A program made the translations under genes and the position numbers. The notes under the pieces were generated by a model. The model was not told the origin of the DNA. It ran no database searches and was given only the letters and a program-made list of their open reading frames with translations. This document shows, piece by piece, positions 35,196 through 63,788 of a stretch of 64,000 nt of DNA. This DNA is from Consotaella salsifontis (lineage in GTDB: Bacteria > Pseudomonadota > Alphaproteobacteria > Rhizobiales > Rhizobiaceae). How positions within the stretch are numbered: the stretch's first letter is position 1; every line of letters begins with the position of its first letter. The stretch lies in contig NZ_FUXL01000007.1 of NCBI RefSeq assembly GCF_900167365.1, positions 62,001-126,000 on the forward strand, written 5' to 3'.

Positions 35196-36608
35196 TCACC
35201 CCAACGGCAGGAAGCCCGAGCGCATGAGGGGCGTGAGAAGCCCCTCGGCCAGCATGGCGAGGATCAGGATGGCACCCGATCCGATCGCCACTGCAACGCC
35301 CGTCGGCAGGCCGAGCGTTGCCACCGGCCTCGTCGGCGGCGCGAACATCATCGGTGCGATGAAGCGCAGATAATAGAAGAGCGAGGCGACCGTGTTGATG
35401 ACCGCCGCCGCCGCCAGCCAAGAATAGCCGCCGTCCACGGTCGCCAGGAACAGCTCCAACTTTCCGACAAAGCCGATCGAGGGCGGAATGCCCACCAGCG
35501 ACAACAGCGCGAGGATGATCGTTCCCGCGACCCATGGCCTCGTCGTGGCAAGACCATCATAGTCGGCGCGCGCCGTCCGCCCGCGCAGATGCGCGACGGC
35601 AGCGAATGCCGTGAGGTTGCTCGCGGCATAGCCGAAGAGAAAGAGGATCAACGCCGGCACGGCATGCGGCGACAGGCCGACGACGGCGACAGCCATGAGC
35701 GCATAGCCCGACTGCGAGACCGACGACCAGCCGAGCATCCGGCGAAGATCCTCCTGCCAGAGCGCGGCGAGGTTGCCGAGCGTCATGGTGATCAGCGCGA
35801 GCGCCGCCACCAGCGGCCGGATGGCGACGCTGCCTTCAGGAAACAGCGAGACGAAGCGGGCGAAGGCGATCGCCGCGCCCACCTTTGGCACCACGGTGAG
35901 AAAGGCGGTTGACGGCACCGGCGCGCCTTCCGCGACATCCGGCATCCAGGCGTGCATCGGCGCCGCGCCGAGTTTATAGGCAAGGCCGAGGATGACGAGC
36001 ACAGCGCCGACGAGCAAAACCGGTGAGCCTTGTCCGCCTGCCAGCGCGCCCCCCATGCCGGCAAAGCCCGTGCTGCCAAGCATGCCGAATGTCAGGACGA
36101 CACCGACCACCATTGCGGTGTTGGCGAGCGCGCCGATGAGAAAGAACTTCATCCCCGCCTCGACCGAGAGCGCCCAGTCGCGGTGATAGGCCGCGAGCAC
36201 ATAGCCCGATGCCGACGAGAGCAGCGCGCCCATGACGAGTTGCAGAAGATCGGCCGCCCCCGCCATCGCCATCGCGCCAAGCGCCGAGAACAGGAGCATG
36301 GCGTAGTATTCCCCGTGCCGCCGGTCCTCGGCAAACCAGCCCGGCGCGAGCAGGGTCGTAAAGGCGGTGGCGCCGAGAATGAGAAGGCGCCCCCACTGGC
36401 TCGCCGCATCGAGCGCCCAACTTTGCGAGAAGGTCAGCCGCGTCTCGCCGAACTGGGCAACGCACAGGGCGGCCGCGGCGGCGAGCCCGACAAGCGCCAG
36501 CGGCGCGCCGATCCACTGCAAGCGCTGCGGCGCGAAGGACGCGAAGAGCAGAATCGCGACCGCCGAAAGGACGACCGCGATCTCGGGAAGGATGTCGCCG
36601 ATCGGCAT
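35196..36608 (-). CDS. NuoN-like proton-channel subunit of a complex-I-related membrane complex
   Basis: The 470-residue protein has about 14 hydrophobic spans and the antiporter-like core PMHAWMPDVAEGAPVPSTAFLTVVPKVGAA, including the conserved Lys of VPKV and the acidic MPD segment. By sequence it is an ordinary NuoN homologue. It is the last gene of an eight-gene operon that lacks every cluster-bearing subunit. The start at 36608 leaves one base after the nuoM-like stop; an ATG at 36629 would overlap that gene. Confidence 0.88.
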   Translation of the reverse strand: MPIGDILPEIAVVLSAVAILLFASFAPQRLQWIGAPLALVGLAAAAALCVAQFGETRLTFSQSWALDAASQWGRLLILGATAFTTLLAPGWFAEDRRHGEYYAMLLFSALGAMAMAGAADLLQLVMGALLSSASGYVLAAYHRDWALSVEAGMKFFLIGALANTAMVVGVVLTFGMLGSTGFAGMGGALAGGQGSPVLLVGAVLVILGLAYKLGAAPMHAWMPDVAEGAPVPSTAFLTVVPKVGAAIAFARFVSLFPEGSVAIRPLVAALALITMTLGNLAALWQEDLRRMLGWSSVSQSGYALMAVAVVGLSPHAVPALILFLFGYAASNLTAFAAVAHLRGRTARADYDGLATTRPWVAGTIILALLSLVGIPPSIGFVGKLELFLATVDGGYSWLAAAAVINTVASLFYYLRFIAPMMFAPPTRPVATLGLPTGVAVAIGSGAILILAMLAEGLLTPLMRSGFLPLG

Positions 36609-36609
36609 C

Positions 36610-38106
36610 TCAGCGGACGCCCCCGGCACCGGGCAGGAACGCCGAGCCCGTTTCGATCAGCGTAAGAAGCCAACTCGGGTAGATGCCGATCAGAACGACG
36701 AGCACGAGAAGCCCGGCGACGACCGCCGCCTCCGTGCGAGAGAAATCCGGGAAGTCCCGCGTCGGAACGGCCGCCCGGCCCATGAAGAGCTTCTGCGCCA
36801 TGGACAGGAACAGCGCCGCCGTGACGACGATGCCGATCAGCGCGACCGCCGCCAGCCAGGGATAGACGGCGAAGGTGCCGGCGAAGATCTGGAATTCGGC
36901 GACGAATCCCGCGAGCGCCGGAAGCCCCAGGCTGGCGAAGGCGGCCAGGAAGAAGGCGGCCGTCAGCTTGGGGGCCGTACGCGCCAAGCCGCCGAAAGCC
37001 GACATCTCATAGGTTTGTGCCCGCTGCCAGAACGATCCCGCCATCAGGAACAGCGAGCCGGTGATCAGCCCGTGCGCCACCATCTCCGTGACGGCGCCGG
37101 TGAGCGCCAACGTCCGGGCACTTTCCGCCCCCAGGGCCGCGCCCGCGGCGGCGATGCCGAGCACCGTGTAGCCCATATGGTTGACCGAGGTGTAGGCGAT
37201 CCGCCGCTTCAGGCTGGTCTGGCCGAGGGCGACAATCGCACCCCAGAGGATCGAAACGAGCGCCAGAATGGCGAGCGGCAGGGCATAGGCGGCGAAGGTT
37301 TCGCGCATCATCGAGAACGGGATGCGCACGATGCCGTAGGTGCCCATCTTGAGCAGGACGCCCGCAAGAATGGCCGAGGCCGGCCCCGGCGCCTCGACAT
37401 GGGCGAGCGGCAGCCAGGTGTGGAACGGCACCAGCGGCGTCTTGATGGCGAAGCCAAGGAGAAGGCCGAAAAGAACGAGGCTCGCCTTAAGGTCCGTCCC
37501 CCGCAGCGGCTGGGCGGCGATCAGCGCGCGCATGTCGAAGGTGAGCGTATCGTTCGCCAGCACCAGGGCAAGGATCGCCAGCAGCATCGCGAGCGAGCCG
37601 GCCAGCGTGTAGATGAAGAACTTCAGCGCCGCATATTCCGCATCGCCATGCCCCCAGCGCCCGATCAGAAAGTACATGCCGACGAGGCTGAGGTCGAAGA
37701 AGACGTAGAAAAGAAGGAGGTCGAGCGCCAGGAACAGGCCGAGCGAAACGCCCTGGAGAAACAGGAACCAGGCGTAATATTGCCGCGCCTTGCCCTTGTA
37801 GTCGGCCGGCCAGGCGATCGAGCCGACGAAGAGGAGCGCGCTCATCAGGGCGACCGCCAGCGCCATGCCGTCGACGCCGACGCGCCACGCGACACCAAGC
37901 GCCGGAATCCAGGCAAATTCGGCCACGGCCTGGAAGGCGGGCGCGCCGGCGCCGGTGTCGAAGCCGAGCCAGACCACGACCAGCGCCAGCAGCGACAGGG
38001 CGGAGGCCACCAGTGCGATCACCCGCGCGACTCTCTCCCCAAAGCCGGGGCCAAGGGCCAGCGCGAGGGAGGCGATCAACGGAAGGAGGATGGCGAGCGT
38101 CAGCAT
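36610..38106 (-). CDS. NuoM-like proton-channel subunit
   Basis: The 498-residue protein has about 14 spans and the family core PLVPFHTWLPLAHVEAPGPASAILAGVLLKMGTYG, including the conserved Lys of LLKMG and the His residues of the channel. It looks fully functional as an ion-translocating half-channel. Its start lies three bases after the nuoL-like stop. The same fold occurs in MrpD antiporters, but the gene set here (A, H, J, K, L, M, N) is that of complex I. Confidence 0.9.
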   Translation of the reverse strand: MLTLAILLPLIASLALALGPGFGERVARVIALVASALSLLALVVVWLGFDTGAGAPAFQAVAEFAWIPALGVAWRVGVDGMALAVALMSALLFVGSIAWPADYKGKARQYYAWFLFLQGVSLGLFLALDLLLFYVFFDLSLVGMYFLIGRWGHGDAEYAALKFFIYTLAGSLAMLLAILALVLANDTLTFDMRALIAAQPLRGTDLKASLVLFGLLLGFAIKTPLVPFHTWLPLAHVEAPGPASAILAGVLLKMGTYGIVRIPFSMMRETFAAYALPLAILALVSILWGAIVALGQTSLKRRIAYTSVNHMGYTVLGIAAAGAALGAESARTLALTGAVTEMVAHGLITGSLFLMAGSFWQRAQTYEMSAFGGLARTAPKLTAAFFLAAFASLGLPALAGFVAEFQIFAGTFAVYPWLAAVALIGIVVTAALFLSMAQKLFMGRAAVPTRDFPDFSRTEAAVVAGLLVLVVLIGIYPSWLLTLIETGSAFLPGAGGVR

Positions 38107-38109
38107 GGG

Positions 38110-40035
38110 TCAGGACACGGACAAGAGGAATAGGATGGCGACAGCGCCCGCGGCGACCGCCAGGGCGTAGTAGTGGTGGGAGAGCCCGGTCTGGATGCGG
38201 CGGGCGTCACGGCCGCTCTGACCGACCATGAGCGCCGTCCCATCGGCGAGACCGTTGAGCAGCCTTTCCCCCACACCTCCGCCGAGTGAAGCCACCCGAC
38301 TGGTTGCGGCAGCCAATCCGGCGACGACGCTGTCGACGCTGACATCGGCGAGACTCGACCAAAGCCGTCCGGCCTGTCTGCCGCCCTTGCCGATGGCCCG
38401 CACCATCGCATCGATGACCCAATCGTCCACGGCGGCGGCGGCTTTCGCCAGGCCGATGGCCGGACGTGTCACCAGCCGATCGATGAGCGCCGGCAAGCCA
38501 AGCCAGTTCGCGGCGCCGCGCGCGTCTCCCTCCCGCCCGAGCCCCGGATGGCGACGGGCGACAACCGCGCCCGCGATGCCGCCGAAAAGCACGGCAAGGG
38601 TCGAGAGAACGAACGTCACTAGCTTCGCTTCCGGCAGCTCAACGTTCAGCCAAGACGCCACCGCGTTCCGGACGAGGGGAAGCCAGAGCAGCGACGTCAC
38701 GACTACCAGGACCGCCAGAACGGCCAAGGCGGCGAGTTCTATCCGTCCGGGGCGATAGCCCTCGTCCTTCTCTTCTTCTGGCGACGAAGCGTCGAAAGCC
38801 GAAAGCGCGAATCGCGCCGCATAGGCCGCGCTCAGAGCGCCCGCCGCGATGACACCGGCCGCGATCCAAAGATCGACGTGCTCGCCGGCCGTGACGATCC
38901 CCTCCTTCGTCCAGCCACCGCCGAGCGGCGGCAAGCCAGCCAGAGAGAGCGCACCGACCGCCACCAGGACGGCGGTCCATGGCAGGACGCGCCCAAAGCT
39001 CATGCGATCGAGCGAATAGGTGCCGGCGCGGCTTCCCGCGATGCCGGCGCCGAGGAACAGGAGCGCCTTGAACGCCGCGTGGGCGGCGAGGTGCAAGAAT
39101 GCGACGCCGGGAAAGCCGGCGCCGATGGCGACGAACATCAGGCCGAAATGAGCGGAGGTCGAGGCGGCGAGAAGCTTCTTGGCGTGGATCTGAAGCACGG
39201 CCACCATGCCGCCGGCGAGCGCCGTCGCCAGTCCCAGGCCGAGGATCGTCACCGAGGCGCCCGGCACGGAAGCGAGGAACGGCTCCAGCTGGATCAGGAT
39301 ATAGGCGCCGGCGGCGACCATCGTCGCGGCATGAAGCAAGGCGGAAACCGAGGTCGGGCCGGCCATGGCGCGGAACAGCCAGGGCGAGAACGGCACCTGC
39401 CCGGATTTCGCCGCCGCCGAGAGGATGAGACCGAAGGCGACGTCGGCAGCAAGGGGGGCAGGAATGCCGCCGAGCGCCGCGTAGGAGAAGGAGCCGGTGG
39501 CCGCGAACGTGGCGATGGCAGCGACGAAAAGACCGAGATCGCCGAGCCGCGTCACCAAGAACGCATAAAGGCCGGACGCGGGATTCTCCTCCTCGCGCCA
39601 TTCGTGCCCGATCAGGAGGTAGGAGCAGGCGCCGACCAGCTCCCAGCCGATGAGCAGCGTCAGAAGGTCGGCGGCGATCACCAAAAGCTCCATGCCGGCA
39701 ACGAAGAGCAGCAGGAAAGCGACAAGGCGCGCCAGCCCTTCCTCCTCTTCGTGGAAGGTTGCGTAGGCGAGGATCGGCAGGGCGATCAGCGGCACCAGCA
39801 TCGCCATCGCGGCCGAGATCGGCGTCAGCGCCGCCGTCAGGACGATGGGTCTGGCCCAGACCAGCATCCCTGCCCAGCCATTGACGGCGGCGATGAAAGC
39901 AAACGCCAGCGTCCCCGCCAGTCCCACAAGGGCGACGCCCAGCAGCCTGCCCCGCGCTCCTCCGCTGGTATTCGAAACCGCGAAGGGCACAGCCAGGGCG
40001 GCCAAAATCGGCGGAAGTATCAGAAGAAACAGCAT
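38110..40035 (-). CDS. NuoL-like proton-channel subunit
   Basis: The 641-residue protein has the NuoL core QVPFSPWLFRAMAGPTSVSALLHAATMVAAGAYIL, with the conserved Lys near AAAKSG and the SALLHAATM motif. The C-terminal part extends beyond the channel as in NuoL, where a lateral helix lies along the membrane arm. Its ATG overlaps the nuoK-like stop. Canonical channel residues are kept, in contrast to the quinone-end subunits of this operon. Confidence 0.9.
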   Translation of the reverse strand: MLFLLILPPILAALAVPFAVSNTSGGARGRLLGVALVGLAGTLAFAFIAAVNGWAGMLVWARPIVLTAALTPISAAMAMLVPLIALPILAYATFHEEEEGLARLVAFLLLFVAGMELLVIAADLLTLLIGWELVGACSYLLIGHEWREEENPASGLYAFLVTRLGDLGLFVAAIATFAATGSFSYAALGGIPAPLAADVAFGLILSAAAKSGQVPFSPWLFRAMAGPTSVSALLHAATMVAAGAYILIQLEPFLASVPGASVTILGLGLATALAGGMVAVLQIHAKKLLAASTSAHFGLMFVAIGAGFPGVAFLHLAAHAAFKALLFLGAGIAGSRAGTYSLDRMSFGRVLPWTAVLVAVGALSLAGLPPLGGGWTKEGIVTAGEHVDLWIAAGVIAAGALSAAYAARFALSAFDASSPEEEKDEGYRPGRIELAALAVLAVLVVVTSLLWLPLVRNAVASWLNVELPEAKLVTFVLSTLAVLFGGIAGAVVARRHPGLGREGDARGAANWLGLPALIDRLVTRPAIGLAKAAAAVDDWVIDAMVRAIGKGGRQAGRLWSSLADVSVDSVVAGLAAATSRVASLGGGVGERLLNGLADGTALMVGQSGRDARRIQTGLSHHYYALAVAAGAVAILFLLSVS

Positions 40036-40340
40036 CAGTTCTTCAGCGTCCCGAGGCTTTCCGTCGTATCCGCCTGTCGCTTGCGATAGACCGCCGTCAC
40101 CAGGGCGAAGCCCACGGCCATGTCGACAGCCATCACCGCCATGATGATGATCGCCAGAAGCTGCCCCTCGGGCGCGCCGCCGAGAGCGAACGACCAGAAG
40201 CCGATGACGGCGAGGAGCGCGCCGTTCAGCATCAGCTCGAGTCCCATCATGAGCATGACGAAGGACTGCTGCGACAGCGCGCCGTAAAGGCCGATGCCGA
40301 TCAACGCGGCGGCGACAATGAGGACGCTGGATAGGGTCAT
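40035..40340 (-). CDS. NuoK-like small membrane subunit
   Basis: The 101-residue protein has three spans. The first buried Glu is present in GLELMLNG. The second buried acidic residue, normally Glu in the third span, appears as Asp in MAVMAVDMAVGFAL. These residues belong to the proton path along the membrane arm. The length is that of NuoK and MrpC; NuoK is the better fit because of the neighbouring J and H. Confidence 0.9.
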   Translation of the reverse strand: MTLSSVLIVAAALIGIGLYGALSQQSFVMLMMGLELMLNGALLAVIGFWSFALGGAPEGQLLAIIIMAVMAVDMAVGFALVTAVYRKRQADTTESLGTLKN

Positions 40341-40361
40341 GAGTTTCCGGCTCCCCTTATC

Positions 40362-40973
40362 TCAACCGTGCATGTGATGGTGATGGTGGTGACCGCCGGA
40401 TTCCTCCGGCTTGCGGCCCGCCGGCTCGCCGCCCGGCTCCAGCCCCGGCGGCAGCGAGCCTTCGTCGGAAGCACCGAAGCGGCCGCTGCGCGCCGACAGG
40501 ACGACGGCTCCGACCATGGTCGCGAGCAGCGTGACGCCCGCCGTCTCGAAGGTCAGCATCGAGGGGCCGAGAAGCTCTATGCCGAGATCATGAACGACGC
40601 GCTTGGCCGGATCGACGCGGTTGTCCACAAAGTCCGTGGCCAGCGCCGCAAGGCTCAGCCCGGCAAAGGCGACGACACCGGCCCCGATGGCAAAGCGGTT
40701 CTGATGAACCATCATCATCGGATTGAGGCCGGCGGGGTTCATCATGAACATGACCATGAAGAGGGCCATGACCATCATCTCCACCGCCATCATGAAGATA
40801 GTCGCGACGCCGATATAGGGTGCCGCCATCAAGAGGATGATCAGCGCCACGGCGACGAAGGAGAGAAGCAGCAGGAAGGAGGCGCGCACCATCGAGTCGG
40901 TGACGAAGACCCGCCAACCGGAGATGACCGCAACCGCAGAGAGAAGGATGAAGGCGATGTCGATCAACCCCAT
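40362..40973 (-). CDS. NuoJ-like membrane subunit with Met-rich helix and His-rich tail
   Basis: The 203-residue protein has five spans and the overall size of NuoJ. Two features are unusual. The third span, where NuoJ normally has a YVGAVAVLF-type segment with a pi-bulge, reads MMAVEMMVMALFMVMFMMNP: nine Met in residues 61-78 and a buried Glu65. A further MMM follows at about 86-88. The C-terminus ends with GGHHHHHHMHG, seven His within the last eleven residues. Both are classic soft-metal or Ni/Cu-binding features and are not part of normal NuoJ. The start overlaps the nuoH-like stop by ten bases. Confidence 0.85.
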   Translation of the reverse strand: MGLIDIAFILLSAVAVISGWRVFVTDSMVRASFLLLLSFVAVALIILLMAAPYIGVATIFMMAVEMMVMALFMVMFMMNPAGLNPMMMVHQNRFAIGAGVVAFAGLSLAALATDFVDNRVDPAKRVVHDLGIELLGPSMLTFETAGVTLLATMVGAVVLSARSGRFGASDEGSLPPGLEPGGEPAGRKPEESGGHHHHHHMHG

Positions 40974-41887
40974 AGCAGCAACTCCACGCCAACGGCGGCG
41001 AGCATCAGGAAGGACAGCGGCAGCAGCGCCAACCAGAGAAAGCTCATCATGCGCGCCGGCGGCATCCGCGCGAACCAGTTACCGGCCGCAACCAAGGCGA
41101 CGAGCACGAGGGCGCTCTTCAACGCCAGCCAGACGAAGCCGGGCAGGACGGGGCCGAGATACCCTCCGAGGAACACCGTCGCCGTCATGGCGGATACCGA
41201 AACGAGCATCGCAAGGCGCGCCAGCCGCCAGCTCAGCCGCGCGGCGCCGGAAACCTCCGCCTGCGTACCGCCGGCGAGATCGTAAGGATCGGCGTAGTCG
41301 AAAGGCCCGCGCAGGCTGACCGAGAGGCCGAGCATCAGGAAGAGGACCAGCCCCGCCGGCTGGCGCACGACGTTCCAAACGTCCCGCTGCGACTCGACGA
41401 TCTCGACGAGGCCGAGGGACTGCGCGGGAAGCGCCGCGCCGATCAGCACGAACATCGAGAGCAACATTGCCGGCAGGCCGATGGCGACATAGCGGTAGGC
41501 GCCCATCAGCGGCAGCGGCGCGTTGGCCGACCAGCCGTGCAGGAAGACCGCGACGACGGTCAGCGCCTCGCAAGCGCCCCAGAGAACGATGCCGACCTCA
41601 GACGGGGCCGCGACGAGCCTCGGCGACAACGGAACGACGCTGAGGCCGACAGCCGCCAAGGTGAAGTAGAGGATGGGCGCAAGGACCCAGCCCACGCGAT
41701 CCGGGTGCTCCGTGTCGCTCTTCGGCGCGATGGCCATGGCCGCTGCCACCGCGAACGGCGCCGAAAGGCTACTCTTCATCGGCCGCCCGGCGACGAGCGC
41801 TGGAATCGCCCGGTCCAGCATGGCCGCCGCGGCGATTCCGGCTGTGAGGAACAGCAGTAGAATGAGGATCGCGAGCATCTGTGTCAT
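40964..41887 (-). CDS. NuoH-like membrane subunit with degenerate quinone loop
   Basis: The 307-residue protein has about eight spans and keeps the NuoH landmark HGWSANAPLPLMGAYRYV (canonical GWSSNSKYALLGALR). The segment that in NuoH reads PFDLPEAE and forms the quinone-site and E-channel loop is here PFDYADPYDL, so the Glu pair is gone. The N-terminal amphipathic helix with its RxGPNRVG loop is also not recognisable. The subunit probably anchors the membrane arm but cannot be expected to bind quinone normally. It overlaps the upstream gene by four bases. Confidence 0.8.
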   Translation of the reverse strand: MTQMLAILILLLFLTAGIAAAAMLDRAIPALVAGRPMKSSLSAPFAVAAAMAIAPKSDTEHPDRVGWVLAPILYFTLAAVGLSVVPLSPRLVAAPSEVGIVLWGACEALTVVAVFLHGWSANAPLPLMGAYRYVAIGLPAMLLSMFVLIGAALPAQSLGLVEIVESQRDVWNVVRQPAGLVLFLMLGLSVSLRGPFDYADPYDLAGGTQAEVSGAARLSWRLARLAMLVSVSAMTATVFLGGYLGPVLPGFVWLALKSALVLVALVAAGNWFARMPPARMMSFLWLALLPLSFLMLAAVGVELLLWG

Positions 41888-43020
41888 GCGCTCCCGCCCC
41901 CGCCGTGGTTCATGGCGTGGCCGGCGGAATGGTGGTCGCGGCTCGAATGGTCGTGATGATGATGTTCGCCCTCGCCTTTCTCGGCGTTCCCGTCTTCCTT
42001 TTCGACCGGCGCCATGGCCAGGAGAGCCTTGTCATCGAAGCTGTTGATCACGAGTATAGCCTCGGTCCATTCGAGTCCCTCGAGGAGGTCGACGAGCCTT
42101 GCGGGTTGCTCCGAAGAGGCAGGATCGGCCGGATCGGGTCTCTGCACGCCCAACTCATCGAGCCAGCGCCGCATCCGGCTCCTGACGTCTCGGCCATCAA
42201 CCACTCCGAGCCCCGGCGGGATCGCCGCCAATGCGCCGGACCAGCGCACGAGACGTCGGAGCTTTGCGAAATCGACCTCCTCTCCGCACTCCGAAGCCCG
42301 GGATGCGTCCTGAAGCCGATCGGCATGAGCGTCGAGCCCGAGGATCCGCAGGAGGCGAGCGACCCGGCGCAGGCGCAATGCGCGTGTTGGCCCATCGTCG
42401 TGCTGTGCCAACGGCGGCCGGAGCACCTCAGCCTTCTGCACCACGTCACCTTGCAGCGTCAGCGACAGCTTCAGCCCCGGCGGCAGCATTGGCAGGAAGG
42501 GACCAAAGGGCGCCGTATAGGCGTCGAGCGCCAAGCCGTCGCGCAGATCGTCGTTGGTCATAGCCATCGGCCGGCCATAGGGGGTGCCACCCATCATGCC
42601 CTTGCCACCCTGGCCGTGCGGGCCTTCACCGCGCCATGGATTGGCTGGTTCGTTCGGCAACAGGTCGGGCTCGCTCGCCCGCTCAACCATGATCAACGCC
42701 CGGTGAGCGGCCACGATGGCAGCCACCGGATCGTCCTCCACCGCGATTGTCGTAAGATCGTCGAAACCAAAGATGGGATCGCTCCCCCACCACACCGTTG
42801 CGCGTGGGGGCGGCATCTGATCGTGAAGCCGGCGAAGATCGTCATGGTCCTCGTCGCGCAAGGAGCCGGCGACAAGCAGAACATTGGCCTGACGGACGCT
42901 GAGGACACGGGTCAGCCGCGGATCATAGAACAGTCGCTCCACCCGGCCGCGACTTCCTGCGCCGACGGCCGCGAAGACGGAAACGGGCGCCGAAGGAGCT
43001 GATTTTTCCAGAAGCCTCAC
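41884..43020 (-). CDS. Cysteine-free NuoB/NuoD-like fusion protein with His-rich tail
   Basis: The 378-residue protein has a NuoB-like N-terminal part. LSVRQANVLLVAGSLRDEDHDDLRRLHDQMPPPRATVWWGS (residues 40-80, shown in parts) lines up with the NuoB ASPRQADVMIVAGT/YDQMPEPRWVISMGSC region. The tandem Cys pair of the N2 cluster falls where FAAVG now stands, the MGSC Cys is replaced by WGSDP, and the whole protein has a single Cys (255). Residues 130-200 (GLALDAYTAPFGPFLPMLPPG, then LTLQGDVVQKAEV) resemble the NuoD N-terminus. Residues 353-372 hold nine His. GTG at 43020 overlaps the NuoA-like stop; weak start, good coupling. No redox function is possible through an N2 cluster. Confidence 0.72.
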   Translation of the reverse strand: MRLLEKSAPSAPVSVFAAVGAGSRGRVERLFYDPRLTRVLSVRQANVLLVAGSLRDEDHDDLRRLHDQMPPPRATVWWGSDPIFGFDDLTTIAVEDDPVAAIVAAHRALIMVERASEPDLLPNEPANPWRGEGPHGQGGKGMMGGTPYGRPMAMTNDDLRDGLALDAYTAPFGPFLPMLPPGLKLSLTLQGDVVQKAEVLRPPLAQHDDGPTRALRLRRVARLLRILGLDAHADRLQDASRASECGEEVDFAKLRRLVRWSGALAAIPPGLGVVDGRDVRSRMRRWLDELGVQRPDPADPASSEQPARLVDLLEGLEWTEAILVINSFDDKALLAMAPVEKEDGNAEKGEGEHHHHDHSSRDHHSAGHAMNHGGGGSA

Positions 43021-43367
43021 TGCCACCGGAAGACGCCCTCCCGCCAGCCATAGAGGATGCCCACAGAAAGGATGGCGAGGAACATGCCCATCTCCATCAT
43101 CGCCTTGCCGCCTTCCTCGACGAAGACGACGGCCCACGGATACATGAACATCATCTCCATCTCGAAGGCGATGAAGAGCAGCGTCATCGGATAGTAGCGG
43201 ACGTGATAGCGCTGCCAGGCGTGAGTGGTCGGCGCGCCGCCGCCGAGAAACGGCACCTTTTGGGGCTCCGTGATCGGAGCAGCGAACGGCGAGCGCGCGG
43301 ACCGAACCAGCGCGGCAACCGTTGCCGCGACAAGCACGATCACCAATGCTCCAGCCAGTCCCGCCAA
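43017..43367 (-). CDS. NuoA-like membrane subunit, TTG start
   Basis: The 116-residue protein has three spans and the length of NuoA. FIAFEMEMMFMYPWAVVF corresponds to the NuoA FDLEVAFLFPWAV helix, with Leu and Val replaced by Met, and GWREGVFRW matches the NuoA C-terminus. The TMH1-2 loop, normally PYECG with the Cys of the active/deactive switch, is PFLGGG here, so both Glu and Cys are lost. No ATG fits; TTG at 43367 follows AAAGGAGGGG at an ideal distance. It is the first gene of the operon, divergent from the CsoR-family gene. Confidence 0.8.
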   Translation of the reverse strand: MAGLAGALVIVLVAATVAALVRSARSPFAAPITEPQKVPFLGGGAPTTHAWQRYHVRYYPMTLLFIAFEMEMMFMYPWAVVFVEEGGKAMMEMGMFLAILSVGILYGWREGVFRWQ

Positions 43368-43433: not shown

Positions 43434-43449
43434 ATACCCCTGCGGGTAT
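43434..43449. promoter_or_regulatory. CsoR/RcnR/FrmR-type operator
   Basis: ATACCCCTGCGGGTAT is a perfect inverted repeat (ATACCC, four-base centre, GGGTAT) of the C/G-tract type bound by CsoR-family repressors. It is centred in the 154-bp gap between the CsoR-family gene (+) and the nuoA-like gene (-), so a single site can control both directions. Confidence 0.8.
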
Positions 43450-43521: not shown

Positions 43522-43800
43522 ATGCATTCCGAAGAGAACCGGGCCGCCGCGATGAAGCGCCTGAAGCGCATCGAAGGGCAGGTGCGCGGGGTCATCAAGA
43601 TGATCGAGGAAAGCCGCGACTGCGCGGATGTCCTGGACCAGAGTCTGGCGGTGCGCCGGGCGCTGCAATCGTTCGAGGCGCTCCTCCTCGCCGACCACAG
43701 CCTCCACCGGATGGGCGTCGCGGCGCGAACGGGTGATGCCGAGGACCAGAAGAAGGCGCTGAACGAGATCATCGCTTTGGCGATGAAGGCTCGGCCTTGA
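43522..43800 (+). CDS. CsoR/RcnR/FrmR-family metal-sensing repressor
   Basis: The 92-residue all-helical protein matches the family over its full length (RLKRIEGQVRGVIKMIEESRDCADVL). Likely ligands are His2, Cys34 and His59, the N-terminal-His/Cys/His set found in RcnR and FrmR. The second Cys of copper-type CsoR would fall at residue 63, which is Arg, although His62 is adjacent. The sensed species could therefore be Ni, Co, another metal or formaldehyde rather than Cu(I). It is divergent from the complex-I-like operon across a matching operator. Its 3' end overlaps the convergent DsbE-like gene by 32 bases. Confidence 0.88.
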   Translation: MHSEENRAAAMKRLKRIEGQVRGVIKMIEESRDCADVLDQSLAVRRALQSFEALLLADHSLHRMGVAARTGDAEDQKKALNEIIALAMKARP

Positions 43801-44431
43801 TAGCCGATCCTTCCCGCACGGCCGTGTTCCCTTCGGCGCCGGAAGCCTCGCTCTGGAGGCGTCGGACCAGGGGCAGGATGGTCTCGTCCAGCGCCTTCTG
43901 GTCGACAGGCCCGATATGCTTGTAGGCAATGCGCCCGCCGCGATCGATGACGAAGGTTTCCGGCACCCCGTAGACGCCGAAATCGATGGCAACCCGCCCG
44001 TTACGGTCCGATCCGACCCGGTGATAAGGATCGCCGAGTTCCGCGAGCCAGTCGAGAGCGTTGTCCGGATCGTCCTTGTAGTTGAGGCCGTGGAGCGACA
44101 CGGCGCCTTGCGCCGACAGCTTCATCCAATAGGGATGTTCCTCCAGGCAGGCGGTGCACCACGACGCGAAGACGTTGACGATCGAGGCCTCGCCGACGAG
44201 GTCGCGGCTGGCGAGGCCGGGCGGCCGGCCCGGCAGCGGCGGCAACTCGAAATCCGAGATGGTCTGCCCGATCAGCGCCGAGGGAATCTCGCGCGGATTC
44301 CTCGTCAGCCCGACGGCGAAGGCGACGCCGAGGCTGATGAAGAGCAGCAGGGGGAGCGCAAAGAGCCAATGGCGGGAGGTCGGGCGCGCCGAGGCACCGG
44401 CCGCAGCGGCCACTCCCTCAGTCGTGGCCAT
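43769..44431 (-). CDS. DsbE/TlpA-type membrane-anchored thioredoxin
   Basis: The 220-residue protein has one N-terminal anchor (about residues 22-41) and a periplasmic thioredoxin fold with the active site FASWCTACLEEHP (Cys92, Cys95) and the cis-Pro in YGVPETFVI. DsbE/CcmG and TlpA proteins reduce apo-cytochrome c or copper-site thiols in the periplasm. Here it is linked to DUF2933, a cytochrome c and a metal sensor rather than to ccm genes. The start at 44431 overlaps the DUF2933 stop by 14 bases. Confidence 0.87.
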   Translation of the reverse strand: MATTEGVAAAAGASARPTSRHWLFALPLLLFISLGVAFAVGLTRNPREIPSALIGQTISDFELPPLPGRPPGLASRDLVGEASIVNVFASWCTACLEEHPYWMKLSAQGAVSLHGLNYKDDPDNALDWLAELGDPYHRVGSDRNGRVAIDFGVYGVPETFVIDRGGRIAYKHIGPVDQKALDETILPLVRRLQSEASGAEGNTAVREGSAIKAEPSSPKR

Positions 44432-44693
44432 GACCGCTGGTCCGCTCTTCGTTCGGCTCGAGCATGATCTCCTTGAGCGCCCCCTCCCCATTCTGGTCGC
44501 CGCCATGGCCGCCATGCCGCCCGTGCATCAAGCCGTGCATGGCAAAGCAGAGCAACAGCGGCAGATAGGCCAGAAGCGCACCGCCCCGGCTCGCGTCCCA
44601 GGCAAGAAGCCCGAAAGCCGCGACCACGGCAGCGCCGGTCAAGGCGCTCGTCCGAGGCTTGTTTCTTACGTAACCGACGATACCGTCCAACAT
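44418..44693 (-). CDS. DUF2933-type small membrane protein with His/Gly-rich motif
   Basis: The 91-residue protein has two hydrophobic segments (TSALTGAAVVAAFGLLAW and GGALLAYLPLLLCFAMHGL) followed by MHGRHGGHGG and a His-containing C-terminal GHGHD. This is the pattern of DUF2933 proteins, which from general knowledge often sit in copper and other heavy-metal resistance clusters. It is co-directional and overlapping with the DsbE-like gene, and divergent from the response regulator. Confidence 0.7.
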   Translation of the reverse strand: MLDGIVGYVRNKPRTSALTGAAVVAAFGLLAWDASRGGALLAYLPLLLCFAMHGLMHGRHGGHGGDQNGEGALKEIMLEPNEERTSGHGHD

Positions 44694-51583: not shown

Positions 51584-53761
51584 TCAGGCCACTTCCGCAA
51601 CCTTCATCGCGGCGGTGTTCTCGACGGCGCCGCGCAGCTTGCCCTTGAGGCTGGCATATTCCTGCTGCACGTGGTTTTCCGCCCAGAGCTGGTCGGCGAT
51701 CGGCTCCACCTTGACGGCGCTGTACTTGTATTCCGGCGTCTTCGAGGTCGGATCGAAGTTCTCGCCCGTCAGTTCGTTGCAGGCGCCGATCCACCACTGG
51801 TAGGTCATGTAGACCGCACCCTCGTTGGTGCGCTCCGTGATCTGAGCCCTGGTGATGATCTTGCCGCGACGCGACGACACGTGGACCAGCTCGCGGTCCT
51901 TGATGCCGAGGCGCTTGGCGTCCTTCGGGTTCATCGTCACGAAGCCCGGCTCGTCGGCGAGCGTTTGCAGCGCCGAGCAGTTGCCGGTCATCGAGCGGCA
52001 CGAATAGTGGCCGACCTCGCGCACGGTGCACAGGATCATCGGGAAATCGCTGTCCGTCTGATCCATCGGCGGATGCCATTCGCACGCATAGAGCAGGCCC
52101 TTGCCGCTCGGACGCTCGAACTTGTTGCCGTGATAGAGGTATTTGGCGCCATGGGCGTCCTCGACCTCATAGCAAGGCCACTGCACGTAGCCGAGGCCTT
52201 CCATCTTCTCGTAGGTCGCGCCGTAGAACTTGGGTGCGAGCTCGCGCAGCTCGTCCCAGATTTCCTGGGTGTTCTGGTAGTGCATGGGATATCCCATCGC
52301 CGTCGCGATCTCGGCGATGATTTCCCAGTCGTGCTTGCATTCGCCCTTCGGCGGCACGGCCTGATAGAAGCGCTGGAAGGTGCGGTCGGCGGCGGTGAAG
52401 ACGCCCTCGTGCTCGCCCCAGGAGGTGGCGGGCAAAACCAGATCGGCGAGCATCGCCGTCTTGGTCATGAAGATGTCCTGGACGATGACGAATTCCATGC
52501 CCGCCAGGGACTTGCGCACGGCGGTGAGGTCCGGGTCGGTCTGCGCCGGGTCCTCGCCCATGATGTAATAGCCCTTGAGCTTGCCATGCTCGACGAGGTG
52601 GGGAACGTCCGTCACCATCGCGCCGACCTTGTCGGGCAGCGAGGCCACGCCCCAGCGCTTGGCGAACTTCGCGCGGATGGCGGCGTCCGTCACCGGCTGG
52701 TAGCCGGGGAAGACGTTCGGCAGCACGCCGAGATCACACGAGCCCTGGACGTTGTTCTGGCCGCGCACCGGCCCGACGCCGACATGCGGACGGCCGAGAT
52801 TGCCGGTCAAGAGCGCGAGGCCCGACAGGCCCTTCACCACGTCGACGCCCATGGTCCACTGGGTGACGCCCATGCCCCACAGGATTGTGGCGCTCGGCGC
52901 GGCGGCATAGATGCGCATCGCCTCGCGGATGTCGTCGGGATCGAGGCCGGTGATGTCGGCAACGTATTCCGGCGTGTATTTCGAGACGATCGCCTTGTAT
53001 TCCTCGAAGCCTTCCGTGTGGTTGGCGACATAGGACTTGTCGTAGAGGTTCTCGGTGATGAGAACATTGGCGAAGGCATTGACCAGCGCCATGTTCGAGC
53101 CGTTCTTCAGCGGCAGGTAGAGGTCGGCAAGGCGCGCCGTCTCGATCTTGCGCGGATCGCAGACGATGACCTTGGCGCCCTTTTCCTTCGCCTCGATGAC
53201 GCGGCGCGCGATGACCGGATGGCTGTCGGCGACGTTGTAGCCGAAGATCAGCAGGCAGTCGGTCTCGCCGATCTCCTGGATCGAGTTCGACATGGCGCCG
53301 TTGCCGAGCGTCTGGGCGAGACCGGCGACAGAAGGCGCGTGGCAGACGCGGGCGCAGTTGTCGACATTGTTGGTGCCGATGACGGCGCGAGCGAACTTCT
53401 GCATGACGAAGTTCGTCTCGTTGCCGCAGCCGCGTGAGGACCCCGTCGTCATGATGGCGTCGGGACCATACTTCGACTTGATCTCGGAGAACTTGGTCGC
53501 GGCGATCTTGATCGCCTCGTCCCAGGAGATGCGCTCGAAATCGGCATCGCGCGAGCGGCGATACATCGGGTGGAGCAGGCGCGGCGTCAAAATCTTCGTG
53601 TCGTTGACGAAGTCATAGCCGTAGAGGCCCTTGAGGCACAGCCGCCCCTCGTTGGTGATGCCGTTCAGCGGCTCGACGCCGACCACCTTCTCGTTCTCGA
53701 CCAGAAGGTTGAATTTGCATCCCGTGCCGCAATACGGGCACACGGACATATGCTTTTCCAT
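51584..53761 (-). CDS. fdhF: Formate dehydrogenase H, molybdopterin subunit, Cys form
   Basis: The 725-residue protein is close to Escherichia coli FdhF in length and numbering. The 4Fe-4S ligands are Cys8, Cys11, Cys15 and Cys42. The active-site residue that is selenocysteine in E. coli is Cys140 (ARVCHAPSVAG), with His141 next to it, and NGAMSNSI follows. The protein oxidises formate at a bis-MGD molybdenum or tungsten centre and passes electrons to ferredoxin-like subunits. GGAAAGG precedes the ATG at 53761. It is divergent from the hyf operon and co-directional with the HydN-like gene, so the whole is a formate hydrogenlyase locus. Confidence 0.93.
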   Translation of the reverse strand: MEKHMSVCPYCGTGCKFNLLVENEKVVGVEPLNGITNEGRLCLKGLYGYDFVNDTKILTPRLLHPMYRRSRDADFERISWDEAIKIAATKFSEIKSKYGPDAIMTTGSSRGCGNETNFVMQKFARAVIGTNNVDNCARVCHAPSVAGLAQTLGNGAMSNSIQEIGETDCLLIFGYNVADSHPVIARRVIEAKEKGAKVIVCDPRKIETARLADLYLPLKNGSNMALVNAFANVLITENLYDKSYVANHTEGFEEYKAIVSKYTPEYVADITGLDPDDIREAMRIYAAAPSATILWGMGVTQWTMGVDVVKGLSGLALLTGNLGRPHVGVGPVRGQNNVQGSCDLGVLPNVFPGYQPVTDAAIRAKFAKRWGVASLPDKVGAMVTDVPHLVEHGKLKGYYIMGEDPAQTDPDLTAVRKSLAGMEFVIVQDIFMTKTAMLADLVLPATSWGEHEGVFTAADRTFQRFYQAVPPKGECKHDWEIIAEIATAMGYPMHYQNTQEIWDELRELAPKFYGATYEKMEGLGYVQWPCYEVEDAHGAKYLYHGNKFERPSGKGLLYACEWHPPMDQTDSDFPMILCTVREVGHYSCRSMTGNCSALQTLADEPGFVTMNPKDAKRLGIKDRELVHVSSRRGKIITRAQITERTNEGAVYMTYQWWIGACNELTGENFDPTSKTPEYKYSAVKVEPIADQLWAENHVQQEYASLKGKLRGAVENTAAMKVAEVA

Positions 53762-53790
53762 GAAGGTTTCCTTTCCTTGGCGCGCGGCGG

Positions 53791-54327
53791 TCAAACGGCG
53801 ATGGCGGCGATCGCCGTGCGCTCGCGCAGCTCGGCAAGCGACTGCTGGAGGCTCGCCTCGTCGACGAGACGAAGCGCATTGGTCGGGCAGGCGCCAACGC
53901 AGGCCTGCCCGGCGGCCCGATCGATGCACAGATCGCACTTGTGGGCGCGAGCCTTGACGCCGGCCGAAACCTGGATGCCGGCAATCGACTTCACCGCAGG
54001 CACGGTGATGACTTCCATGACGCCGAAGGGGCAGGCCATCACGCAGTTCTTGCAGCCGACGCAGCGGCTCTGATCCACCTGCACGCTATCGGCGCGATAG
54101 ACGATGGCCCCTTCCGGACATGCGTTGAGGCACGGCGCGTCCTCGCAGTGATGGCACATCACCGCGGTGGAGACGGTCGCGGTCTTGATGACGCGAATCC
54201 GCGGCTCGAAATTCGTCGGCGCCAGGGCCTCCGTCGAGCCATCGGGGCGGTGTGCCATCGCACAGGCGATCTCGCAGGTGCGGCAGCCGATGCATTTGCC
54301 CGGGTCCGCGGCCACGAATCTGTTCAT
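53791..54327 (-). CDS. hydN: HydN-like 4Fe-4S ferredoxin, formate dehydrogenase electron carrier
   Basis: The 178-residue protein has four CxxCxxCxxxC/CP-type groups: CIGCRTCEIAC, CHHCEDAPCLNACP, CVGCKNCVMACP and CDLCIDRAAGQACVGACP. It would carry electrons from FdhF to the hydrogenase and belongs to the HydN/HycB/HyfA group. The gene starts 29 bases upstream of fdhF on the same strand and is probably its first operon partner. HydN and HycB are hard to separate by sequence; the fdhF linkage favours HydN. Confidence 0.85.
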   Translation of the reverse strand: MNRFVAADPGKCIGCRTCEIACAMAHRPDGSTEALAPTNFEPRIRVIKTATVSTAVMCHHCEDAPCLNACPEGAIVYRADSVQVDQSRCVGCKNCVMACPFGVMEVITVPAVKSIAGIQVSAGVKARAHKCDLCIDRAAGQACVGACPTNALRLVDEASLQQSLAELRERTAIAAIAV

Positions 54328-54740
54328 TCCTCAGTTCCCTTTCCTGATCCGGCCTCCAGCGAAGGCCGCCTCCGAGCCGGTTGCCGAACGGACGAGGAGC
54401 AGCTGCCCGCCATCACGATCCACGGCACACGATCGAAAATCCCTATCACTCAATAAGCGAAACATATCCGATCGATCGAATATGTATATCTGCCGATAAG
54501 AATCCTCTATCAACGGATATTTGAAAATATAGCCTGTTCGATTTGCGTTCGTTAAGAGACGGATTGCCGCATGTCAATTTATGAGACACGGTGATAGCAG
54601 GACACAAAGAGAGCATTAGGGAAATAAACTCACATGGGCCGAGCCAATACTTGTTTTCTATTGCTCGATCAGGATTCTCGATCGAGCGTGGATCGCCGGG
54701 GTTCGATGCCGGAGAACGCGATGCAAGGAGATGCCGGTCA
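54328..54740. other. Divergent control region between hydN-fdhF and hyfA
   Basis: No believable gene lies in these 413 bases, which are AT-rich in the middle. They contain a near-perfect 22-base palindrome (54461-54482) and an 8-bp inverted repeat (54663-54670 with 54680-54687). I looked for a sigma-54 promoter (GG-N10-GC) on both strands, as used by enteric FHL genes, and did not find a convincing one. Confidence 0.5.
54461..54482. promoter_or_regulatory. 22-base palindrome in the FHL divergent region
   Basis: The arms CATATCCGATC and GATCGAATATG meet at a central CGATCGATCG core and pair with a single mismatched position on each side. It lies 134 bases from the hydN start, so it could serve either operon. 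No family of regulator can be assigned from the sequence. Confidence 0.5.
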
Positions 54741-55325
54741 ATGAACCGCTTCATCGTTGCCGAAGCTGGACGATGCATCGGCTGCAACACGTGCATGGCC
54801 GCCTGCACCCAGGCCCATAAGGAGGCCGGGCGACAGAGCCATCCACGCCTGACCGTCACCAAGACGGCCGACGCGACGGCTCCGGTCGTGTGTCATCATT
54901 GCGAGGACGCGCCCTGCGCGCTCGTCTGTCCGGTGCGTGCCATCACGCACCAGGACGGCATGATCATGCTCGACGAGAAGACCTGCATCGGCTGCAAGCT
55001 CTGCGCGCTCGCCTGCCCCTTCGGCGCCATCACGCCGTCGGGAACGGGGCTTGCCGGCGTCGCGGGCATCGCCTTCCCCACGGTGAGGCCGCAGACGCTC
55101 GATCCGCTTCTGGTCTGGGAGCAGGGCGTCAAGTCGGTCGCCGTGAAATGCGACCTCTGCGACTTCCGCGACGAGGGTCCGGCCTGCGTACCCTCCTGCC
55201 CCACCAACGCCCTCTACCTCGTCGGCGACGACGGCATGGACGCGGTCGTCGCCAACAAGCGCGAGGTCACGGCCGATCAGCTGGGTCGTCCGAAGCTTCT
55301 TTCGGCCATGGGAGGTCGCGAGTGA
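54741..55325 (+). CDS. hyfA: Hydrogenase-4 4Fe-4S ferredoxin subunit HyfA
   Basis: The 194-residue protein has four 4Fe-4S groups (CIGCNTCMAAC, CHHCEDAPCALVCP, CIGCKLCALACP, CDLCDFRDEGPACVPSCP) and passes electrons from formate dehydrogenase to the NiFe subunits. AAGGAG lies ten bases before the ATG at 54741; the frame extends further upstream but without family features. Its stop overlaps the hyfB ATG, consistent with tight coupling. It is paralogous to the HydN-like protein at 53791. Confidence 0.88.
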   Translation: MNRFIVAEAGRCIGCNTCMAACTQAHKEAGRQSHPRLTVTKTADATAPVVCHHCEDAPCALVCPVRAITHQDGMIMLDEKTCIGCKLCALACPFGAITPSGTGLAGVAGIAFPTVRPQTLDPLLVWEQGVKSVAVKCDLCDFRDEGPACVPSCPTNALYLVGDDGMDAVVANKREVTADQLGRPKLLSAMGGRE

Positions 55326-57346
55326 TGACGCCGCTCGAATTCCTCGGTCTGTCGCTCGCCCTGTCGCTTATCGGCGCCTTCGCGAGCTTGATTCTCGGCC
55401 GATCCGAAACTCTCGCGAGCGGGATCGCCAGCGTGGCCGGCGTCCTGGCCGCGGCGTCCGGCCTCGGCGCCGGCCTCCTCTCGCTCACCGGCCCCGTTTC
55501 GACCCTAGCCCTCGACGGCCCCTACCCCTTCGCGCACTTCGTCCTGAGGCTCGATCCTCTCGCCGGCCTGATGGTCGCGGTGATCTCGCTGCTTTCGCTG
55601 GTCGCCTGGATCTACGGTCTTGCCTATGTGCGCGAGTATTCCGGGCGCGGCGTCGGCGGCATGGGCTTCTTCATGCACCTCTTCATCGCCTCGATGATGC
55701 TGGTGGTGACGGCCGACAACGCCTTCTGGTTCCTCATCTTCTTCGAGATGATGTCGCTCGCCTCCTACTTCCTCGTCATCTTCGACGAGGACAAGAACGC
55801 GGTCGGCGCGGGCTTCCTCTATTTCTTCGTCGCCCATGCCGGCTCGGTGCTGATCATGGCGGCATTCTTCCTTCTGGCCAATGCCGCCGGCAGCTTCGAT
55901 TTCGAGGCTTTCCGCCACGTCTCGCTGTCCGCGCCCATGGCCTCCACCGTCTTCGTTCTCGGCTTCCTCGGCTTCGGCGCCAAGGCGGGCATGATCCCGC
56001 TCCACATATGGCTGCCCAAGGCGCACCCGGCCGCACCGTCTCACGCCTCGGCGCTGATGTCGGGCGTCATGATCAAGATCGGCATCTTCGGCATCGTCAA
56101 GGTCGCGCTCGACCTTCTCGGCGGCGGCCAGCCGATGCTGTGGTGGGGCGTTCTGGTGCTTGCCTTCGGCGCGGTGTCCTCGGTGCTGGGCGTCGTCTAC
56201 GCGCTCGCCGAACACGACATCAAGAAGCTCCTCGCCTACCACTCGGTCGAGAACATCGGCATCATCCTGCTCGGTGTCGGCACCGGCATGATCGGCCTGG
56301 CCGAAGGACAGCCGGTGCTCGCCGTGCTCGGGCTGATGGCCGGCCTCTATCACCTCGTCAACCACGCTGTCTTCAAGGGGCTGCTCTTCCTTGGCGCCGG
56401 CTCGGTCATTTTCCGCGTCCACACCAAGGACATGGAGGAGATGGGCGGGCTGGCAAAGACGATGCCGTGGACGGCGCTCTCCTTCCTTGTCGGCGCCCTG
56501 GCCATCTCGGCGATCCCGCCGCTCAACGGCTTCGTCTCCGAGTGGTACACCTACCAGGGCCTCTTCGCGGCGGCGCTTTCCGGCTCTTTCCTCGTCCAGT
56601 TCGCGACACCCATCGCGGCTGTCATGCTGGCGCTCACCGGCGCGCTGGCGGTGATGTGCTTCGTCAAGGCCTATGGCGTCATCTTCGCCGGCCCCTCGCG
56701 CAGCGCCCACGCCGCCCATGCGACGGAGGCTCCGGCACCGATGGTCACGGGCATGGTGGTGCTGGCTCTCGCCTGCGTCTGCCTCGGCCTCGCCGCCCCG
56801 TGGATCGCCCCGGTGATCGGAGGTATCGCTTCGGCCACCCTCGGCCTGCCGACGACGACGCTGGCCGACGGCGCCTTGCTGATCCCCGGTGCGGCAAGCA
56901 CGACGGTTCTCTCGACGCCGCTCATCGCCATCCTGCTTTTGGCGCTGGCCACGCTGCCGATTGTCGTCAAGGCGATGTTCTCCGGTACCCGCATAGCGCG
57001 GCGCCGCTCCGACGCCCCGTGGGCGGCAGGATACCTTCCCGACATCCGCATGGCGCTCACGGCCAAGAGCTTCGCCCAGCCGATCCGCATGTTCTTCGTG
57101 CCGCTCTACGCGGTCAGGAAGTCCGTCGCCGGCGCCTGGTCGCATATCACCATCGGCTTCGAAAACTTCGTCTGCCTGGCTCGGCGCACCGAGCCCTGGG
57201 CCGACACTCGCTTCGTCGATCCCGTCACCCGCGGCGTCACCGTCACCGGGCGCTGGATGCAGGTGATCCAGGGCGGCGATTTCCGCATCTACTGCCTCTA
57301 CATCGTCGGCGCACTGATCGTGCTGCTCGCCGTGGCAGCCCACTAG
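55325..57346 (+). CDS. hyfB: Hydrogenase-4 membrane subunit HyfB
   Basis: The 673-residue membrane protein has about 15-17 spans and the NuoL/M-type ion-channel core MIPLHIWLPKAHPAAPSHASALMSGVMIKIG, with the channel Lys of MIKIG. The C-terminal extension (ADTRFVDPVTRGVTV) is characteristic of HyfB and HycC. It couples the redox chemistry to ion movement. The length matches E. coli HyfB (672). Confidence 0.92.
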   Translation: MTPLEFLGLSLALSLIGAFASLILGRSETLASGIASVAGVLAAASGLGAGLLSLTGPVSTLALDGPYPFAHFVLRLDPLAGLMVAVISLLSLVAWIYGLAYVREYSGRGVGGMGFFMHLFIASMMLVVTADNAFWFLIFFEMMSLASYFLVIFDEDKNAVGAGFLYFFVAHAGSVLIMAAFFLLANAAGSFDFEAFRHVSLSAPMASTVFVLGFLGFGAKAGMIPLHIWLPKAHPAAPSHASALMSGVMIKIGIFGIVKVALDLLGGGQPMLWWGVLVLAFGAVSSVLGVVYALAEHDIKKLLAYHSVENIGIILLGVGTGMIGLAEGQPVLAVLGLMAGLYHLVNHAVFKGLLFLGAGSVIFRVHTKDMEEMGGLAKTMPWTALSFLVGALAISAIPPLNGFVSEWYTYQGLFAAALSGSFLVQFATPIAAVMLALTGALAVMCFVKAYGVIFAGPSRSAHAAHATEAPAPMVTGMVVLALACVCLGLAAPWIAPVIGGIASATLGLPTTTLADGALLIPGAASTTVLSTPLIAILLLALATLPIVVKAMFSGTRIARRRSDAPWAAGYLPDIRMALTAKSFAQPIRMFFVPLYAVRKSVAGAWSHITIGFENFVCLARRTEPWADTRFVDPVTRGVTVTGRWMQVIQGGDFRIYCLYIVGALIVLLAVAAH

Positions 57347-57356
57347 GAGGATCGAG

Positions 57357-58295: not shown

Positions 58296-58318
58296 GAGCC
58301 GCGTAGGGACCCCATCCA

Positions 58319-59782: not shown

Positions 59783-59792
59783 GGAGAATTCC

Positions 59793-60446: not shown

Positions 60447-60449
60447 ATC

Positions 60450-63778: not shown

Positions 63779-63788
63779 GGTCGCCGTC

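Follow-up and report, generated by a model that had tools for sequence, protein, structure and literature searches.

An operon derived from the complex I membrane arm, with lost redox parts and a methionine-rich module, that is probably concerned with a soft metal

We examined a stretch of 64,000 nt (the window) from the genome of Consotaella salsifontis (assembly GCF_900167365.1, contig NZ_FUXL01000007.1, positions 62,001-126,000, forward strand). From 43367 to 35196 its minus strand carries an operon of eight genes, overlapping or almost so, that encode relatives of the complex I membrane arm in the order NuoA, X, NuoH, NuoJ, NuoK, NuoL, NuoM and NuoN. The ancestry of the operon lies in complex I, and we hold it very probable that the system deals with a soft metal and has no redox activity. 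We give roughly an even chance to the more specific reading that it is a proton-coupled, non-redox derivative of complex I that would export a soft metal, most likely Cu(I), and work like Mrp. The original prediction, an ion-driven or gated machine for metal homeostasis, holds in so far as the operon is redox-dead, derived from complex I and linked to a metal, probably copper; that the machine transports, and does not act as a gate or sensor, is what we infer. It had also stated that no described system of this make-up was known, and we found none in the open-licence literature that was searched. Pending experiment, we rate this as a new system built from known parts.

Gene calls and Pfam bore out the predicted operon of membrane-arm relatives. 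Matches above the Pfam cut-offs were Oxidored_q4, q3 and q2 for NuoA (43017-43367), NuoJ (40362-40973) and NuoK (40035-40340), NADHdh for NuoH (40964-41887), and Proton_antipo_M for NuoL (38110-40035), NuoM (36610-38106) and NuoN (35196-36629). The only Pfam match of window X (41884-43020) was to NuoB, below threshold (16.4 bits). NuoA has a TTG start behind AAGGAGG, and X a GTG start. NCBIfam gave a picture that agrees: NuoM (458 bits versus a cut-off of 264) and one NuoK model (68 versus 57) were above the complex I cut-offs, and the remaining scores shown for the operon genes fell below the cut-offs for complex I subunits.

We looked for relatives in one genome per named species (84,980 species). 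Of the 97 found, we retained the best 80 loci; there were matches in four plasmid records besides, and the three that were opened brought the set to 83 loci. Sorted by gene end, 73 of the 83 loci have exactly the order A-X-H-J-K-L-M-N; seven of the other ten are cut by contig ends and three have an extra or split match. Because the order is exact in so many relatives, the eight-gene arrangement is far beyond chance. The hosts are mainly Alpha- and Gammaproteobacteria and include Aurantimonadaceae, Rhodobacterales, Sphingomonadales and Halomonadaceae, together with Salinisphaera, Stutzerimonas, Rhodanobacter, and metagenome-assembled genomes (MAGs) of the Burkholderiaceae and of an actinobacterium; many host names belong to genera that are marine or halophilic. 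Among 398 genomes that sample the phylum evenly, X was found at E<=1e-10 in 8: the window genome, four more strong matches and three weak ones that constitute a sister clade. A NuoM tree built with 31 family rows, the window included, places the family in one clade (support 100/99) apart from the canonical NuoM of the host genomes. The joining of family and sister clade in this tree has support 94/85 with long branches; the NuoH tree was a quick version. No relative was found in the viral contigs searched. Two loci are present in each of Palleronia abyssalis, Palleronia pelagia and a Salinisphaera MAG (L056 and L063; L064 and L067; L053 and L068), and Roseivivax marinus has X on two plasmid records. 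The records opened label the operon proteins as NADH-quinone oxidoreductase subunits of the ordinary kind and one hypothetical protein, which makes the system easy to overlook.

The redox subunits of complex I do not accompany the operon. Using E. coli NuoB, C/D, E, F, G and I as queries against 86 loci (the 83 and the three sister loci), we found no NuoC, E, F or I beside the operon in the 83 family loci. The matches in the 86 loci were two to NuoG, one of them (L030) at an annotated formate dehydrogenase and the other in L089, and a 24-bit match to NuoC/D in the sister locus L216 that is taken to be X itself. As a positive control, the same queries found the redox genes in 19-20 of 20 canonical regions. 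Finding nuoC-G and nuoI beside relatives had been named as grounds for giving up the prediction, and this search did not refute it. Intact nuo genes elsewhere in the genome, another point raised at the outset, are present: canonical nuoB, C/D, E, F, G and I lie on another contig of the window genome (L111). A search of 39 host genomes (drawn from 40 of the 80 loci, the host of L074 being left out) found canonical NuoD (E<1e-100) elsewhere in 36; in three Halomonas-type hosts, whose genome completeness is not stated, it was not found and the operon is kept. With canonical nuo genes present elsewhere, the operon is not the respiratory complex of the window genome or of those 36 hosts.

Profile and fold matches identify X as a fused NuoB-NuoD protein, in the window further eroded at its NuoD end. 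The family profile matched NuoB chains in the PDB at profile positions 36-79 (best E 1.3e-7), and the longer X, which Halomonadaceae and some other hosts have, matched NuoD chains as well (best E 8.2e-7); both long examples scanned were above the Pfam cut-off for the 49-kDa subunit (32 and 34 bits versus 24). AlphaFold2 gave confident models of window X and Chromohalobacter X, with a mean predicted local distance difference test score of 84.3 and 84.1, respectively. In Foldseek, window X matched NuoB-type chains weakly, the one below E 0.001 being the NuoB-type subunit of formate hydrogenlyase (FHL; 1.8e-4), and long X matched NuoD-type chains (best 1.7e-6). Across 66 aligned X proteins (those of 65 of the 83 loci and that of the window) no cysteine is conserved, the best column having 22 of 66, so that the NuoB cysteines for cluster N2 are gone, as had been predicted, and neither a NiFe-ligand CxxC nor an intact NuoB-type cluster subunit is found. 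The best-conserved part of X is a loop between its two halves (PNPWxGxG..GQGGxGMMGGxPYGRPMAM, 42526-42651 in the window), in which Met142, Met143 and Met152 are invariant in the 66 rows and Met154 is present in 65. The models have confidence below 50 in this loop (residues 136-155 in the window model and 124-165 in the Chromohalobacter model).

To compare the membrane subunits, we aligned 76-83 family rows of each with its canonical counterparts in E. coli and as many as 21 host genomes (for NuoN, 13 canonical rows only besides E. coli). Rows were dropped for length (J 6/81, A 1/83, K 2/80, H 1/81, L 3/79, M 2/77 and N 0/76) and the window was then added. The residues of the quinone end have been lost. 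The predicted PFLGGG in place of PYECG in the NuoA loop, and PFDYADPYDL in place of PFDLPEAE in NuoH, are both present as quoted, and across the aligned rows the YECG of NuoA and the NuoH glutamates are gone: E157 is lost in 80 of 81 rows, E218 deleted in all 81 and E241 replaced by Arg or Lys in all 81 (Arg in the window). The Asp that we took for NuoA D79 is Glu in 83/83 and Asp in the sister clade. The proton path is retained with exceptions. The Glu, Lys and His residues examined in NuoL and NuoM, the NuoN lysines and NuoK E36 are kept with few departures, in agreement with the claim that L, M and N keep their channel lysines; NuoN K217 is Glu in 2/77, NuoN H224 is Gln in 1/77, and NuoL H334 is not His in 2/77 (one of which is an undefined residue, X). 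NuoK E72 is Asp in 10/79, the window among them, NuoM E144 is Asp in 76/76, and NuoN E133 is Leu in 77/77, a change that the original prediction had overlooked.

The other change is a gain of methionine in the subunits of the E-channel. Family and canonical Met contents are 8.6 versus 2.8% in NuoA, 8.6 versus 3.8% in NuoJ and 9.2 versus 4.0% in NuoK, whereas those of H, L, M and N are below canonical. Counting as invariant gains those Met columns with >=95% in the family and <20% in canonical rows, we found six in A, ten in J, four in K, two in H, none in L, one in M and two in N. In the window, transmembrane helix (TM) 2 of NuoA reads FEMEMMFMYPW, NuoK has gained Met at 29, 31, 67 and 70, and NuoJ TM3 carries MMxxEMxVMAxFMVMFMM (40740-40793). 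The quantum region set up for the E. coli E-channel in a 2026 study includes NuoJ V58, Y59 and A62 (PMC13324432). These three residues are Met, Met and Glu in all 76 family rows and likewise in the three sister rows. A DNA pattern for the NuoJ motif occurs once each in exactly the eight genomes of the phylum sample that have X and in none of the 390 others; as an exact pattern it matches 58/80 family loci, 0/21 canonical and 0/40 control loci.

Putative metal-binding features also appear in the soluble parts. The last 60 residues of NuoJ hold at least three His in 78 of 81 proteins (the exceptions being L066, L078 and one truncated protein), and runs of at least four His occur in 47/81; in the window the tail is poly-His (40365-40391). 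From the positive-inside rule and the known topology of NuoJ, we take this tail to be cytoplasmic. The C-terminal tail of window X is rich in His and Met (41887-41976), and 18 of 83 X proteins have at least four His in their last 60 residues. The deep sister clade consists of three genomes with the same gene order (L215, L216 and L217). In L217 the heavy-metal-binding domain HMBD (PF19335, E 1.1e-31) and Complex1_49kDa (3.4e-13) lie in one X protein. Its HMBD scored 108.9 bits against a cut-off of 23.6, with two stretches above threshold, and together with His-rich linkers it lies between the NuoB and NuoD halves, the place of the Met loop in the main family. The TCPMHPEV signature is present in three copies in L215, three in L216 and two in L217; window X has no HMBD above cut-off. 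Sister NuoJ has no His tail, and its TM3 matches the family at 9/9 positions examined, Glu65 included. A search of 385 genomes of the class for further members of the sister clade gave one match, confined to query positions 142-245, the HMBD part. HMBD was also found in a neighbouring CusB-type protein.

We next consider the genomic surroundings. In the plasmid loci of Acuticoccus, Roseivivax and Halomonas the operon adjoins annotated cueR, copper P-type ATPases, multicopper oxidases, DUF411 or copABCD. Clustering of the flanking open reading frames of the 83 loci, with no preset families, returned a multicopper oxidase at 20 loci, CopB at 17 and a MerR-family regulator at 14. With a fixed set of references, at least one copper marker was present at 41/80 loci versus 3/40 control regions (Fisher p 9.6e-7), the controls being 20-kb host-genome regions at arbitrary positions, mostly on contigs carrying canonical nuoD, and the case flanks being shorter (median 12.2 kb); an earlier reference set had given 43/80 versus 3/40. 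Since the references came partly from the case loci, we recounted without the nine donor loci and obtained 32/71 versus 3/40 (p 3.4e-5). The nearest marker was within 1.5 kb in 29 of the 41 marker-bearing loci. By genus-level groups, which were assigned by hand from record titles as loci of one genus are not independent, 19/40 had a marker. Among four further members from the phylum sample, L218-L220 have CopA- and CopB-type neighbours and L221 has none. The copper link is therefore strong but not universal; by eye, the neighbours of 14 marker-free loci were mostly unlike one another.

Three further kinds of flanking gene were noted. An egtB-like gene (annotated as ergothioneine biosynthesis) is present at 10/80 loci versus 0/40 controls, and stands immediately after NuoN in L030, L101 and L219-L221, L030 having both egtB and egtD; ergothioneine may bear on copper handling. 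An Ion_trans_2 channel gene lies in the flanks of 5/80 loci (L054, L055, L060, L063 and L064), in L054 (7935-8369) just upstream of NuoA. Upstream of NuoA, L069 (8680-9228) and L073 (8686-9219), both counted as marker-free, encode a protein that is rich in Met and His and begins with a signal-like stretch.

Metal-sensor control, as originally predicted, is plausible for this operon on the sequence evidence. A CsoR/RicR/RcnR-family gene (43522-43800, plus strand) diverges from it, and between the two lies a perfect dyad, ATACCC-N4-GGGTAT (43434-43449), a candidate operator that is unique in the window (chance mean 0.03, one mismatch allowed). The genome has a second copy (G000:C27:75798-75813), which is probably due to chance as it lies inside a tRNA-Ser(cga) gene. 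What did not hold is the conserved neighbourhood with CsoR and DUF2933: a single-sequence search found a CsoR neighbour at 2/80 loci and a DUF2933 neighbour at 1/80. Where a copper gene was found, a multicopper oxidase, CopB, DUF411, CueR, Cus or cupredoxin fills that place. A CueR-like motif upstream of NuoA was found in 2 of 84 sequences (the 83 loci and the window) versus 13 of 2400 background windows; two stricter patterns gave 0/84, the CsoR pattern among them being too strict to match the window dyad. Exact inverted repeats shared among the 83 loci came down to two GC-rich words, in 6 and 4 loci.

These observations can be joined in a model in which the eight proteins would assemble as one complex that handles neither electrons nor quinone any more, while protons would still flow through L, M and N. 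The carboxylate E-channel of A, H, J and K, by which complex I relays the quinone signal, would have turned rich in Met and acquired a buried glutamate, NuoJ Glu65. The His-rich tails, together with the Met/HMBD loop of X, would gather a soft metal (Cu(I) most likely) at the cytoplasmic face, from where it would enter the A-J-K module. There an electrostatic link between its movement and the flow of protons in N, M and L would let the proton motive force expel copper from the cytoplasm. In its full form, a copper pump driven by the proton motive force, with Cu(I) passing through the Met-rich E-channel in place of quinone chemistry and X acting as the metal-loading subunit, we put the model forward tentatively, at a little under even likelihood.

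Several findings weigh against copper export. At 39/80 loci and in 21/40 genus-level groups these references detected no copper marker, and none was found at the three sister loci (20, 11 and 11 kb). Copper P-type ATPases were present in 40/40 genomes tested, the window genome included, so a second exporter is not obviously needed. The Cu(I) ligand triad of CsoR is Cys-His-Cys; when the window regulator is aligned with CsoR, Cys34 and His59 match and Arg63 occupies the position of the third ligand. The NuoN Glu133 that is lost adjoins the coupling point. Helical wheels of J TM3 and A TM2 had no single Met face, and so we claim no Met stripe. Plain runs of at least six His were found in only 20/81 NuoJ tails, and such tails would suit Cu(II), Ni or Zn equally.

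The residue and neighbourhood evidence also fits a Cu(I)-gated proton valve or sensor. Cu(I) bound by X and the Met module would then switch the passage of protons through L, M and N on or off, and the metal itself would not be transported. Such a valve, whose purpose might be to tune the proton motive force or pH in copper stress, would also avoid the redundancy of another exporter beside the copper ATPases. Nevertheless, we consider the valve rather unlikely: the invariant Met columns of J span a whole predicted membrane helix and not one surface only, depth being judged from sequence, and three full antiporter-like subunits would be a large cost. A soft-metal machine for another ion (Ag(I), Zn or Ni), or for copper import to supply cuproenzymes, is improbable given that the most widespread flanking families are copper-resistance genes, although the His-rich tails and HMBD are not copper-specific and the relatives of the window regulator include sensors of copper, nickel (InrS) and formaldehyde (FrmR). 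Also improbable, and marginally the more so, is an Mrp-like Na+/K+ proton antiporter of a salt or metal stress repertoire, with copper genes hitch-hiking on islands and plasmids. The marine and halophilic host names, the flanking ion-channel genes, the half of loci that have no copper neighbours and the reported use of the same module for Na+/K+ by Mrp speak for this antiporter; invariant Met, His-rich tails and HMBD would be unexpected for Na+ or K+ sites, and the closeness of the markers, within 1.5 kb in most marker-bearing loci, does not suit hitch-hiking. Finally, a decaying or recruited complex I still in electron transfer, with redox subunits encoded elsewhere, can be dismissed as very improbable in spite of the kinship of all eight proteins with complex I subunits, because of the strict conservation and the separate NuoM clade, and given the cysteines, quinone-site residues and NuoA loop lost across the aligned rows and the three hosts that carry the operon and in which canonical NuoD was not found (completeness again not stated).

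The operon lacks features that define complex I and group 4 hydrogenases, and it departs from Mrp in gene content; we therefore file it under none of these. It resembles complex I in its seven membrane subunits, in an H-J-K-L-M-N order that is that of E. coli nuo minus nuoI, in the mostly retained lysines and glutamates along the proton path of L, M and N, and in an X that is like NuoB (window) or NuoD (long form) in sequence and fold. It differs in having no NuoC, E, F, I or NuoG proper, in fused and eroded B and D, in the missing cluster cysteines and quinone-end residues, and in its Met-rich E-channel and His-rich tails. Group 4 [NiFe] hydrogenases, FHL and Ehr share NuoB, D, H and antiporter-like subunits, and FHL provided the best fold match of window X; however, they are not known to have NuoA, they carry Fe-S and usually NiFe ligands, and they keep B and D separate. 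The copper efflux systems CopA, CusCBA and CopAB are genomic neighbours of the operon, and Met-rich Cu(I) paths are a chemistry in common with them; we know of no homology between them and the operon membrane subunits. Mrp is likewise a non-redox complex I relative with antiporter-like subunits and a J/K-type module as the proposed cation path; its structure paper routes Na+ via the parts that resemble NuoJ and NuoK, with a carboxylate where Y59 would be (PMC7419157). In contrast to the operon, whose eight genes all fall in other families (a comparison that covered the operon but not its flanks), Mrp has MrpB, E, F and G, and its cation is Na+ or K+; it is not known to have a Met-rich module. 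The DAB2 carbon uptake complex is alike in that it is reported to pair a complex I-type proton-conducting subunit with a cytoplasmic partner.

Other genes of the window adjoin the operon. Between 43769 and 49257 lie a TlpA-like redoxin of thioredoxin fold (43769-44515, minus strand), the DUF2933 protein (44418-44693, minus strand), a response regulator, a histidine kinase, a cytochrome c and a protein with BNR-type repeats, all of which may belong to the same stress set; the listed start of the redoxin overlaps the DUF2933 gene, and its true start is thus probably later. Further on (51584-64000) are a formate dehydrogenase, ferredoxin-type proteins and a hydrogenase-4/formate-hydrogenlyase-type cluster whose large subunit (62063-63778) retains the CGIC and DPCYSC motifs. 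Besides this subunit and canonical NuoD, the window genome has two further PF00346 homologues, on C20 and C22.

It is debated how the E-channel links what happens at the quinone end with the pumping of protons as far as 200 angstroms away. A natural relative that has kept the pumps and swapped the quinone end for an apparent metal path would reveal what the coupling module needs. If our reading is true, the operon would represent a new class of proton-coupled metal machine, in which the proton machinery already known to work with redox or with Na+/K+ has a driver of a third kind, with X standing as a metal-loading subunit where NuoB and NuoD once delivered electrons.

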